Shown: positions 184 through 27,258 of the stretch, piece after piece
Position numbering within the stretch: position 1 is the stretch's first letter
How the letters are laid out: each line of letters begins with the position of its first letter
Translations under genes and position numbers: made by a program
Assembly (NCBI GenBank): GCA_947650005.1
Contig: CANSTU010000038.1
Coordinates: 1 to 32,752, forward strand
From: an uncultured Lachnospiraceae bacterium
GTDB lineage: Bacteria; Bacillota; Clostridia; Lachnospirales; Lachnospiraceae
DNA: 32,752 bases
Direction of reading: 5' to 3'
The notes under the pieces: model-generated
Told to the model about the DNA's origin: nothing
The model's database searches: none
The model's input: the letters and a program-made list of their open reading frames with translations, nothing else

Positions 184-582
184 TCACTGATGCCGGTTTC
201 CGAGGATCCTTTCCATGAAAAGTCCGGTGACGAGCCAGCAGGGAAGATAGTCCAGGCGGATGATCCGGCCGATGTTCCAGCGGGCTTTTCCGTAATCCCA
301 GGGACAGAGATTGCGTTCCTTGAGAAAGCGGCCGGAGATATATTCGCCGGCCAGGATGAGCCCGGCATAAATGCTTCCCCGGACTGGCCAGGACAACCGC
401 CGGGCCAGGCGGAAGACGGGAGCTAACAGGCACCCTGCTCCGTAGATGGGAAACATCCATAGGGATGTGGTGCCTTTGAGCATCATATCCCTTCTTTGCA
501 GGGAATGGAGGGCTGTAAAGAGGATTTCCAGGCACCAGCCGAGGATGCCGCATTTGAAAAAGTTTTTGATCAATGTTCGCAT
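184..582 (-). CDS. Small PF06541-like membrane protein (putative ABC-transporter type IV family)
   Basis: This gene encodes 132 residues. The N-terminus carries an LGWCLE segment, followed by a hydrophobic stretch around FPIYGAG and two further hydrophobic segments. This order matches the PF06541 family of multi-pass membrane proteins, whose transport role is only putative. I chose the ATG at 582 because an AGGAAA ribosome site lies just upstream and the family similarity begins there. The longer frame reading back to 786 would translate a palindromic repeat, so I rejected it. The protein is shorter than many family members, which often carry extra C-terminal segments. It is divergent from the AraC-type gene at 1050, with a 91-nt-core palindrome between them. 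Membrane location is fairly sure; function is unknown. Confidence 0.7.
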   Translation of the reverse strand: MRTLIKNFFKCGILGWCLEILFTALHSLQRRDMMLKGTTSLWMFPIYGAGCLLAPVFRLARRLSWPVRGSIYAGLILAGEYISGRFLKERNLCPWDYGKARWNIGRIIRLDYLPCWLVTGLFMERILGNRHQ

Positions 583-629
583 GATTGAAGTATTTCCTGA
601 AACGGCGTCTTTTATGCGGCAGAATGACT

Positions 630-780
630 GCGGCGCGGTCATCCTATGTTTTTGTACGCCATTGCGCCGGACATTCCGATGAGCCCTGGACGCTTTCCAG
701 TCGAGCAATGGCTCTCCTGGAAAGCAGGTCTCATCTACATGGCGCAAAATGCGTACAAAAACATAGGATGGCCGCGCCGC
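630..780. repeat. Palindromic element, copy 1: 91-nt conserved core in 30-bp arms
   Basis: The arms at 630-659 and 751-780 are inverted complements with one mismatch and no indels. The 91-nt core between them (660-750) recurs at 26964-27054 with 81 of 91 positions identical, while the arms of the two copies are unrelated. The core folds further: TGCGCC pairs with GGCGCA, GATGAG with CTCATC, GCTTTCCAG with CTGGAAAGC, and GAGC with GCTC around a four-base loop. It lies in the divergent gap between the gene starting at 582 and the promoter at 893. The arms lack the 3' T run of an intrinsic terminator. Confidence 0.85.
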
Positions 781-892
781 CTCCACCCTGCCGCCTCCAT
801 CCTGGGACTCTCCTCTCCTGCCAAGCTCCTGATGGGGATGGGCGCGGCAACGAGACGGGGCAAGGGCGGTTGGGGGATATCCGCTTTTTCGC

Positions 893-944: not shown

Positions 945-1049
945 AGATCGAAATTTCATTTTAATCACTTCGATTTGACTGCGTGCTTTGCACGTAGATG
1001 GGATTATCCTGATTTGTATGCGCGCTCTGGCGCGCAGATGGGAGGGAAC
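945..1049 (+). promoter_or_regulatory. Tandem hairpin-GATGGGA leader (two units)
   Basis: An ATCGAA/TTCGAT hairpin is followed by GATTTGA, a GCGTGC-TTT-GCACGT hairpin and AGATGGGA (972-1003). Then comes GATTTG, a perfect 7-bp stem (1019-1025 with 1030-1036, loop TCTG) and AGATGGGAGG (to about 1045). The last GGGAGG is the ribosome site of the gene starting at 1050. The same arrangement occurs before several other genes in the window. Confidence 0.6.
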
Positions 1050-2237
1050 ATGGATTTTCTGGAGGCGGCGGCGGTTCTCATTCCTTCCCTGACAGGGATG
1101 GCAATGGCCATATATGGGGGGAAACCGGATGTACTGGCTTCTTTTGAAGAAAGGTTCTGCTTCATGCCCTCTGTTCAGAGAATCTATACCGCCGCAGGGT
1201 TGCGGCTTTTTTTGGAAGACGCCCTGGAAGAATGGATCTATGATATCATAGAACCTATGGGATCCCGCCTGTTCCTTTTCGGCCTGGAGGGACGGTGGAT
1301 CCTTTTGGGGCCCTATGTGGAGGAAGGGTGGAAGGAGGGAGCGGCCAGACGCATATTAGCTGGCTTGGGAGCTTCCGAGAGCGTAGTTCTGGCCTATAAA
1401 ACATATCGTTGCCAGCTTCCGATTTCTAGGCAGGATTATGTTCAGAAAATCGCTCTCCTGTTGACGGGGCAGGGGAGGGAAGCGGGAAACGGACGCAAGA
1501 TAAAGACGATCCATATGGAGGCGGGGTATCAGAAGGATGCGCCGGCCTTTCTGGGGATCTATGAAGATATCCATATCATCAACAGACGGTATCACCTGGA
1601 AGATCTCTTTATGGATGCTGTCAGCCGCGGGGATACACAGGAGGCATATCGGCTGCTGAAGGAGACAGGAAGCCTGGAAGTGGGCCTGCGGTTTCTTTCG
1701 GATAGTATGAAAGATCAGGCGGCAGGAGCGGCCATTGGAAGGACCATGGTAAGGATGGGGGCGAAAAAGGCTGGGCTCAGTCCAGTCCTTATCGATTCCA
1801 TCAGCCAGGAATATGCCCAGCGGATGCAGCACGCTTCATCCGGCGATGAATTGAAGCGGCTGTCAAAGCAGCTGGTGGGCCGCATCTGCGAAGAGGTGCG
1901 TAAAGAGCAAAAGAGAGAGTACTCCCCCTACGTAAAAAAGGCCTTGAGCTATATGGATGCGAATTTGGGAAATCCTATGTCCGTTGTGGATGTTTCGAAA
2001 GCGGCTGGGCTCAGCCGTTCCCATTTCGTGAAGTTGTTCGGACGGGAAACGGGCATGACGATGAAGCGTTATCTCGCGGCAAAGCGTTGCGAGATCGCTG
2101 CAAACCTCCTTTTGGATAGTGCCTTGAGCGTACAGGAGATAGGCGCTTACGTGGGCTATCCGGACAATAATTACTTTTCTAAGGTTTTCAGGGCACAAAA
2201 GGGCGTTTCTCCGCAGGATTACCGAAAAGCGCATTAG
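1050..2237 (+). CDS. AraC-family transcriptional regulator
   Basis: This 395-residue protein has a typical AraC/XylS DNA-binding domain over its last ~100 residues. Two helix-turn-helix units are visible, one around VSKAAGLSRSHFVKLF and one around VQEIGAYVGYPDNNYFSKVF, and the chain ends near the usual PQDYRK. The ~280-residue N-terminal part is not a recognised cupin or response-regulator receiver and probably serves as a sensor. The ATG at 1050 follows GGGAGG at good spacing; the frame reads open upstream to 585 but would include the promoter and leader. Regulation may involve the tandem hairpins in the 5' leader. Its targets are unknown: the downstream defence-like gene is one candidate, separated by a repeat array, and the divergent membrane protein is another. 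Confidence 0.85.
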   Translation: MDFLEAAAVLIPSLTGMAMAIYGGKPDVLASFEERFCFMPSVQRIYTAAGLRLFLEDALEEWIYDIIEPMGSRLFLFGLEGRWILLGPYVEEGWKEGAARRILAGLGASESVVLAYKTYRCQLPISRQDYVQKIALLLTGQGREAGNGRKIKTIHMEAGYQKDAPAFLGIYEDIHIINRRYHLEDLFMDAVSRGDTQEAYRLLKETGSLEVGLRFLSDSMKDQAAGAAIGRTMVRMGAKKAGLSPVLIDSISQEYAQRMQHASSGDELKRLSKQLVGRICEEVRKEQKREYSPYVKKALSYMDANLGNPMSVVDVSKAAGLSRSHFVKLFGRETGMTMKRYLAAKRCEIAANLLLDSALSVQEIGAYVGYPDNNYFSKVFRAQKGVSPQDYRKAH

Positions 2238-5033: not shown

Positions 5034-5150
5034 GGAGCCGTTTCGCCCCTCTGGCCGCACGCAAATGGCAGATGCCTTCCCGAAACCTCTTCCCGGGCTT
5101 TGGAAAGCATCTGCCATTTGCGTGCGGCCAGAGGGGCGGAAACGGCTTCC
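5034..5150. repeat. Long inverted repeat (about 47-49-bp arms)
   Basis: The arms at 5034-5080 and 5102-5150 are near-perfect complements, with about two small differences. They surround a ~21-base loop with a CCCGGG centre. The repeat fills the gap between convergent genes ending at 5004 and 5176. It could stop transcription from both sides, but neither strand has a T run after the stem. Its loop does not resemble the 91-nt core found elsewhere in the window. Confidence 0.85.
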
Positions 5151-12049: not shown

Positions 12050-12092
12050 GGGAAGCGTCCAGGGCTAATCGAAAGGGCAGGCGCAATGGCGC
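12050..12092 (-). repeat. Partial, diverged copy of the 91-nt core
   Basis: This stretch matches the reverse complement of about half of the conserved core: GGGAAGCGTCCAGGGCT is identical to copy 2, then come six differences, and ATGGCGC ends the match. In all, 37 of 43 positions agree with copy 2. The other half and any long arms are absent, so it looks like a decayed or truncated element. It lies between the divergent araC and purE promoters. Confidence 0.6.
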
Positions 12093-12128
12093 AAAAGTTG
12101 AATTTTTTATTAATTCACCCGGTTAAGG

Positions 12129-14452: not shown

Positions 14453-14471
14453 TCGTGTATGCAGGGGATAA

Positions 14472-14530
14472 GTTTGAAACTTCGTTTCAATCTCCCTGAT
14501 TTGAGCGCGTGCTTTGCACGCGGATAGGTA
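14472..14530 (+). promoter_or_regulatory. Composite hairpin leader before purD
   Basis: A TTGAAAC-TTC-GTTTCAA hairpin (14474-14490) is followed by CTCCCTGATTTGAG, a perfect CGCGTGC-TTT-GCACGCG hairpin (14506-14522) and GGATAGG. The same order occurs at 945-1003 and, in part, at 32689-32752. Lying inside the operon, it could affect purD translation or mRNA processing. Confidence 0.55.
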
Positions 14531-17029: not shown

Positions 17030-17092
17030 GGGATGCCTTCGGCAGGCTGCACGGGGGCGAGGGAGGACGCCATGAGCCAGGGAGGGCCTATC

Positions 17093-17335
17093 CTTGCGGC
17101 GGGCGATCGGCAGGCCCTCTGTTTTGAAAAAAAGCTGAGACTTTGGGCAGTCTCTAAAGAGGATGGTCCCCTGCTTCGGACATCCTGTCCGGGGCTAAAC
17201 TCCTCGCTTTGCTCGTCGGACGACGCCCCATATGGGATGAAGCAGGGGATTATCCTCTTTAGAGACTTTAAAAAGCCTCAGAAATTTTTCAAAACAGAAG
17301 GGCCTACCAAATCGCCCGCCGCAAGGGTAGGCCCT
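17093..17335. repeat. Long imperfect palindrome with a structured 61-nt core
   Basis: The arms at 17093-17177 and 17239-17335 are inverted complements with scattered differences and a few indels; CTCTAAAGAGGAT and CCCCTGCTTC are clear shared blocks. The core (17178-17238) has its own hairpins: GGACA/TGTCC and GGGGC/GCCCC. Each arm can also fold on itself (GGGCCTACC with GGGTAGGCCC in the right arm). The left-arm hairpin AGGGCCT/AGGCCCT is followed by CTGTTTTG and could end the SH3b transcript. The core does not match the 91-nt core. Confidence 0.85.
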
Positions 17336-17405
17336 TCCTGGTTCGTGGCTGGTTTCCGCTAACCTGGCTGACCTGCGGCATCCTCCTTTTGAACGATAAA
17401 ACCGG

Positions 17406-26856: not shown

Positions 26857-27161
26857 CCATGGAAACAGCATTTCAATCATTGCTGCACAGCCTCCTCCAG
26901 CCTTCCGCCCGGACAGGTGCGTCTTAGGGCAGAGCGCGGCAGCCTTCCCCTGTTCCCGCGCGCCATCGCGCCGGACATTCCGATGAGCCCTGGACGCTTC
27001 CCCCTCGAGCAGAGGCTCTCCGGGGAAGCAGGTCTCATCTCCATGGCGCGAAATGCGCGCGGGAACAGGGGAAGGCTGCCGCGCTCTGCCCTAAGACGCA
27101 CCTGTCCGGGCGGAAGGCTGGAGGAGGCTGTGCAGCAATGATTGAAATGCTGTTTCCATGG
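26857..27161. repeat. Palindromic element, copy 2: 91-nt core in perfect 107-bp arms
   Basis: The arms at 26857-26963 and 27055-27161 appear perfectly complementary over 107 bp without indels. They begin and end with CCATGG. The 91-nt core at 26964-27054 matches copy 1 (660-750). Compensatory changes between copies preserve the inner stems: TGCGCC/GGCGCA becomes CGCGCC/GGCGCG, and GCTTTCCA/TGGAAAGC becomes GCTTCCCC/GGGGAAGC. It lies between the divergent mrp and rhaM promoters, and no protein-like frame is supported in it. Confidence 0.92.
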
Positions 27162-27224: not shown

Positions 27225-27258
27225 GAATTGGGTGTCTGCTTTAGCAGGCAGATGGGAG
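27225..27258 (+). promoter_or_regulatory. Hairpin-GATGGGAG leader of rhaM
   Basis: GAATTG is followed by a CTGCT/AGCAG hairpin and GCAGATGGGAG, at the 5' end of the expected mRNA. Here the GGGAG is about 35 bases before the ATG, too far to be the ribosome site. Confidence 0.5.

Follow-up and report, generated by a model that had tools for sequence, protein, structure and literature searches.

Two hairpins with a common core in the window

The window (the whole stretch of DNA analyzed here, 32,752 nt from an uncultured Lachnospiraceae bacterium, called the source genome below) carries two hairpins in which a core is framed by self-complementary arms; both are given here on the forward strand. 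Copy 1, upstream of an AraC-type gene, consists of a left arm (616..659), a core (660..750), and a right arm (751..794). Copy 2 lies between divergent genes, for a P-loop NTPase and rhaM, and consists of a left arm (26857..26963), a core (26964..27054), and a right arm (27055..27161). Each core is 91 nt long, and the two agree at 81 of 91 positions. Six of the exactly 10 differences form three compensatory pairs, at core positions 4/87, 37/62, and 40/59 (alignment columns 19-102, 52-77, and 55-74); on all of these points our recount agreed with the original prediction, which had been made from the window alone. That prediction also gave the arms as 30 and 107 bp long. The 107-bp arms of copy 2 stood up and are perfect complements of each other (100%), whereas the arms of copy 1 proved to be 44 bp long and 86% complementary, with 29 matches to the right arm in the inner 30 bp of the left arm (630-659).

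The core folds into four stems around an asymmetric internal loop. In copy 1, P1 pairs 662-668 with 741-747, P2 pairs 678-687 with 726-735, P3 pairs 692-699 with 718-725, and P4 pairs 703-706 with 711-714; the loop comprises 669-677 and 736-740, with the approximate sequences GGNCATTSC and TNCAT, respectively. Compared with shuffles, the two window copies gave folding z-scores of -14.9 and -11.1, the folded stretches including the arms. An armless relic, the 5' half of a core, lies on the reverse strand (12050..12096) between an AraC-type gene and an AIR carboxylase family gene and is absent from the covariance-model matches in the source genome.

Copies of the core in the source genome and in other Lachnospiraceae

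A DNA search of the source genome gave 40 scored matches to the core, and a covariance model built from 25 copies found 110 at an E value of ≤0.1, a number that includes both strands of many palindromic copies as well as fragments at contig ends. The search for further copies that the original prediction had suggested was thus productive, the recurrence is too frequent to be due to chance, and the arms differ between loci. At 62 places that were read out in the source genome, the core is exactly 91 nt long in 51. Many contigs end within a core (e.g., C33:1-95, C93:1-89, C6:1-50, C6:86002-86051, and C108:1-54), and assembly therefore probably breaks at the hairpins, which makes the copy number uncertain. 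The core is present in dozens of copies in this genome and also occurs in scattered Lachnospiraceae, every time as a covarying hairpin.

Among 61 genomes (60 relatives and the source genome), 6 had model matches, the source genome being one of the 6. With a broader model, matches were found in 20 of 397 Lachnospiraceae genomes and in 16 of 334 genera (source genome counted), and in an order-wide search 13 of 392 genomes matched, all 13 of them in Lachnospiraceae; in both of these searches the best 9 candidates per genome were scored, so that per-genome copy numbers are lower bounds. A scan of named genomes with the core pattern returned at least 99 stretches. Carriers among the 80 matches listed include Eisenbergiella tayi DSM 26961, E. 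porci, CE91-St56, and Hungatella metagenome-assembled genomes (MAGs), along with several further Lachnospiraceae or unplaced MAGs. The exact core pattern gave 0 stretches in a viral collection, and as far as that pattern goes, a phage carrier is unlikely.

The covariation of core stems P1 to P3 is not RNA-like

In an alignment of 63 copies, drawn from about 17 genome records, the covariation score was 0.721, compared with 0.188 in shuffles, and 92.1% of cells paired, compared with 39 to 48% in slid registers; the alignment had been fitted to the model, and both figures therefore lean toward structure. The fold and its covariation are real, as the original prediction had it when it proposed that a folded RNA or single-stranded DNA is selected. 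If RNA were selected, the element would be a structured noncoding RNA with a long double-stranded stem, and the compensatory changes would have been kept for the RNA fold; the strong covariation and the conserved loop bases are in keeping with this. Functional RNAs tolerate the G-U step and commonly show it. Across the 63 copies, P1 to P3 together contain 1435 Watson-Crick cells, 6 G-U cells, 19 A-C cells, and 47 others, and P4 holds 195 Watson-Crick cells, 6 G-U cells, 0 A-C cells, and 42 others. In 25 copies from the source genome, both sides were changed in 112 cells and a single side in 12, and G-U and A-C cells numbered 9 and 16 (a tally that omits columns 25-96, a program-added pair with 21 G-U cells). 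SAM riboswitches from 31 genomes of Lachnospiraceae served as a control (31 of 34 prepared copies were aligned; two long copies and one odd copy were omitted). These showed 33 cells changed on both sides and 24 changed on one side, with 31 G-U and 4 A-C cells, one pair supplying 18 of the 31.

In P1 to P3, G-U is thus rarer than A-C, the reverse of what is seen in SAM riboswitches of the same family, and these stems do not covary by way of tolerated G-U pairs. P4 and the arms lean the opposite way: P4 has G-U pairs and no A-C, and the arms show a modest G-U excess over A-C, with mismatches at 103 to 71 in copies from the source genome and 55 to 37 elsewhere and with 36 G-U versus 20 A-C in the arm part of the 63-copy alignment. 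Some RNA-level selection or a strand bias is possible there. The G-U and A-C tallies and the SAM control, together with the changes in young copies described below, make RNA selection unlikely as the main cause, and we regard a structured RNA as quite an unlikely explanation of the element. The RNA half of the original proposal is therefore unsupported, the changes being almost purely Watson-Crick and in step on both arms. It is possible that the core is a single-stranded DNA fold under selection.

The placement of the copies and the database searches also argue against an RNA. Orientation relative to neighboring genes was counted for the copies that have a called gene no more than 500 bp away on each side, 89 of 107. 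In the source genome, the four gene arrangements were found 15, 11, 13, and 12 times, with no orientation bias and no sign of the core serving a neighboring gene in one direction. In the other genomes, the counts were 20, 10, 4, and 4, where 20 versus 10 refers to the two orientations between co-directional genes; an orientation bias outside the source genome is possible. At the gathering score, Rfam had 0 matches in the window, and at an E value of ≤5 it had 0 matches in window positions 580-830. One other copy (L066) gave four subthreshold matches to unrelated hairpin families, e.g., isrG and plant microRNAs.

Core and arms insert as one unit in CE91-St56

The original prediction offered two origins for the hairpins, namely, that the core inserts into the center of existing palindromes or that it forms arms as inverted copies of adjacent host DNA. 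The arms can seem unrelated from one locus to the next, as either origin would have it, and at one locus in the source genome (L043, C39:4207-4327) two arm-like segments stand in series, symmetric on both sides, apparently as one hairpin nested in the center of another. In CE91-St56, however, whole units bear target duplications. The 28 full copies in the stretches read are 255 to 257 bp long (23 copies) or 272 to 274 bp long (5 copies) and share terminal inverted repeats, with ends like CTCAAACTTCGCAGG, as expected of miniature inverted-repeat transposable elements (MITEs). On either side of these copies lie 7-bp target duplications (T-----A), which are exact in 15 of the 28 and within one mismatch in 20 of 28; in a control with flanks of different copies, 4 of 756 were exact and 33 of 756 were within one mismatch. 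One of the insertion sites is uninterrupted in an E. porci-type genome (G003), so called because the element sequences it has in common with E. porci make a match probable. Core and arms insert as one unit here. On the strength of the duplications and the uninterrupted site, we reject insertion of the core into existing palindromes as a general rule, and with arms that are homologous between copies (see below), both origins in their proposed form are highly improbable. Inverted copying as such is very likely involved, but between the arms and not from adjacent host DNA, since the palindromy in this class stops at the element end or no more than a few bases away from it.

Insertion with a target duplication, and an empty site to match, had been named in the original prediction as evidence that would speak against it. 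We found both for the CE91-St56 subfamily and, among the classes compared, for that subfamily only. In the source genome, where arms and ends vary widely between copies, there are few clear target duplications (a handful of candidates among 59 copies), and in E. porci-type copies no target duplication was seen. With the duplications clear in one subfamily only, unit insertion is not settled for every copy. Five core-less derivatives of 43 to 86 bp have the same ends as full copies, and three of them have exact 7-bp duplications (read by eye); an inserted element may thus lose its core. In a mouse MAG (MGBC000181; L157 2240-3250 and L182 6105-6763), cores often occur as inverted pairs within a larger inverted-repeat element in which no obvious gene was seen, and the paired hairpins differ in their arm words.

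No transposase or other partner gene was found in the element-bearing stretches, in the neighboring open reading frames (ORFs), or in searches for the ends in genomes of the genus. Likewise, no larger element with the same ends was recognized in the stretches read, the whole-genome search for ends covering the genus only, and no gene was a constant neighbor among 829 ORFs around copies. The Y1/RAYT transposase profile (PF01797) had no match in the source genome; of nine hairpin-carrying genomes searched, four had a match (one of them weak) and five had none. In CE91-St56, a 309-aa ORF (L137 4859-5788) is located next to an isolated element end; we take this ORF to resemble Rpn-type PD-(D/E)XK proteins.

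Arms are alike within copies and diverge between copies

In 50 copies from the source genome, the two arms of one copy had a median identity of 98.8%, whereas arms of different copies had a mean identity of 0.644, compared with 0.587 (standard deviation, 0.035) for shuffled arms; the median identity with the nearest neighbor was 0.77. Perfect arms were found in 17 of 57 copies (of the 62 copies read out, 57 had arms of ≥40 bp and entered the mismatch count, and 50 entered the identity count). The original prediction stated that the arms share no sequence. This did not hold: 19 of the innermost 30 arm bases agree between the two window copies, the mean identity exceeds that of shuffled arms, and recurrent words are visible in the arms of source-genome copies. 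By these sequence comparisons, the arms of different copies are fast-diverging homologues and not unrelated. High identity within copies and low identity between them mean that each copy has drifted far from all others that were read while its own arms stayed alike.

Arms could stay alike if they were made anew at each transposition, with a hairpin or a single-stranded intermediate copied on itself. Many copies have perfect arms and are nevertheless unlike all others, and recent copies in CE91-St56 have identical arms, as this explanation would predict. The changes in young copies argue otherwise. We took as young 13 of the 28 CE91-St56 copies, those with an arm within 5 differences of that of L131, and omitted the 4 innermost alignment columns, where CE91-St56 copies have a fixed asymmetry. 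Over 884 paired sites in these copies, 21 changes affect one arm and 8 affect both (7 distinct events), compared with a chance expectation of 0.04 two-arm changes; uncorrected and corrected changes thus stand side by side. The 21 one-arm changes (11 G-U, 7 A-C, and 3 other) are not clearly filtered by RNA pairing, and with two-arm changes so far above chance, this also counts against an RNA. Dropping those choices and comparing all 28 copies with the consensus gives 201 two-arm changes and 94 one-arm changes, many of which go back to common ancestry. In 15 of the 28 copies, the two ends have the same first 20 bases, and several of these 15 have nonconsensus ends.

Arms and spacer change in place at orthologous loci

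At one locus shared by two species of another genus (L332/L348), the flanks are 78% and 91% identical and the arms are 34 and 33 bp long, each pair perfect. Seven substitutions and one indel separate the arms of the two hairpins, and all of them are mirrored in both arms; barring replacement of the whole element at this locus, the arms have changed in place. Arm homogenization in place was thus seen at this locus and in the young copies, and renewal of the arms at each transposition is, in our view, unlikely. In a second ortholog pair (L342/L346), the arms are strongly different yet largely paired. In a third (L300/L302), the cores are identical and the arms show a single mirrored Watson-Crick change; the remaining arm changes leave T-G or G-T mismatches (read by eye), so this is a weaker case of homogenization, and the G-T pairs fit selection for an RNA fold. 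At a fourth locus (L297/L301), the hairpin is inverted (145 bp, 94.5% identity) within surroundings that are 96% identical over 9.7 kb; it lies between two genes which, as read from their translations, are putative parts of a peptide-transport operon, and its arms pair poorly (19/27 and 17/25). Inversion of the spacer in place was seen at this one locus, and it is not what would be expected if the hairpin served as an RNA.

Between G132 (8 loci) and G428 (6 loci), no orthologous pair was found, and loci common to the E. porci-type, CE91-St56, and source genomes were separate insertions near the same genes.

Relation to known elements

No named element with this combination of features was found in Rfam or in the open-access literature searched, in agreement with the original prediction; no published description of such repeats in Lachnospiraceae or Eisenbergiella was found in that literature, and an earlier account in a subscription journal is possible. 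Bacterial MITEs include ERIC, Correia, RUP, and the like. Our hairpin resembles MITEs in being short, noncoding, repeated, and located between genes, in its terminal inverted repeats, and, in one subfamily, in its target duplication. It differs from them in that nearly the entire element is one hairpin, that the arms vary from copy to copy and still stay self-complementary, that elements unlike in their arms and ends have the same constant, asymmetric core, and that no matching transposase was found for the family. Integron attC sites are hairpins with conserved unpaired bases, a likeness that is general only.

As described in PMC3116915, REPINs and REP elements with RAYT transposases are, like our hairpin, extragenic, nonautonomous, hairpin-forming inverted repeats present in many copies per genome. 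Our hairpin differs in its much longer arms, in the 7-bp duplications of one subfamily, and in a source genome that lacks a Y1 profile match; the PF01797 result led us to reject membership in the REPIN/RAYT group. Template-switched quasipalindromes, as portrayed in PMC8604942 and PMC8794818, show the same arm homogenization, spacer inversion, and multibase compensatory changes. Quasipalindrome correction as presented there is a mutation mechanism, unlike the dispersed element family seen here, in which the loop bases stay asymmetric.

A probable DNA-level explanation of the hairpins

We consider it probable that the element is a MITE-like, nonautonomous mobile DNA hairpin of Lachnospiraceae whose arms are homogenized in place at the DNA level. 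According to PMC8604942 and PMC8794818, template switching between inverted repeats accounts for arm homogenization and spacer inversion, and PMC8794818 also proposes it as a means by which RNA stems are maintained. Template switching in replication, or recombination, between the arms would rewrite one arm from the other and would sometimes flip the spacer; recombination could give the same products, so the two are not told apart by our data. The same process would explain why the core stems covary by Watson-Crick changes only. The noncomplementary bases of the core loop resist this symmetrizing pressure, and from that we infer that they are selected. Most likely, the loop would be recognized, in folded or in duplex DNA, by the agent that moves the element or maintains it, and the lasting asymmetry of the loop points to a putative partner. 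A more specific version, in which the core is the folded-DNA recognition site of a mobile system that acts on extruded hairpins and in which one enzyme both moves the hairpin and renews one arm from the other, has in our estimation a small chance of being correct; if it were true, arm sequence would be free to drift while the hairpin itself was inherited.

Under DNA-level homogenization, the hairpin family would provide natural cases of template switching and of in-place inversion in gut bacteria. Compensatory changes are usually taken as evidence of a functional RNA; here, DNA repeats covary more than a riboswitch does, without G-U intermediates. The ratio of G-U to A-C offers a simple test to tell RNA-selected from DNA-level covariation.

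Other repeats near the hairpins

Small hairpins followed by AGATGGGA or a similar word occur before or near gene starts in the window (975-1050, 14469-14528, and 27228-27252), and the same combination is found at the edge of another element of the source genome (L015). In one genome (G388), a second, different hairpin lies beside the first at about 6728-7007 of L302 and is absent at the same place in G072. The window also holds a 38-bp tandem unit repeated four times (2290-2493), an inverted repeat with 40-nt arms that are 95% complementary and spaced by 21 nt (5041-5141), and a nested pair of imperfect inverted repeats, one of 63 nt (83%) and one of 39 nt (90%), at 17069-17349.
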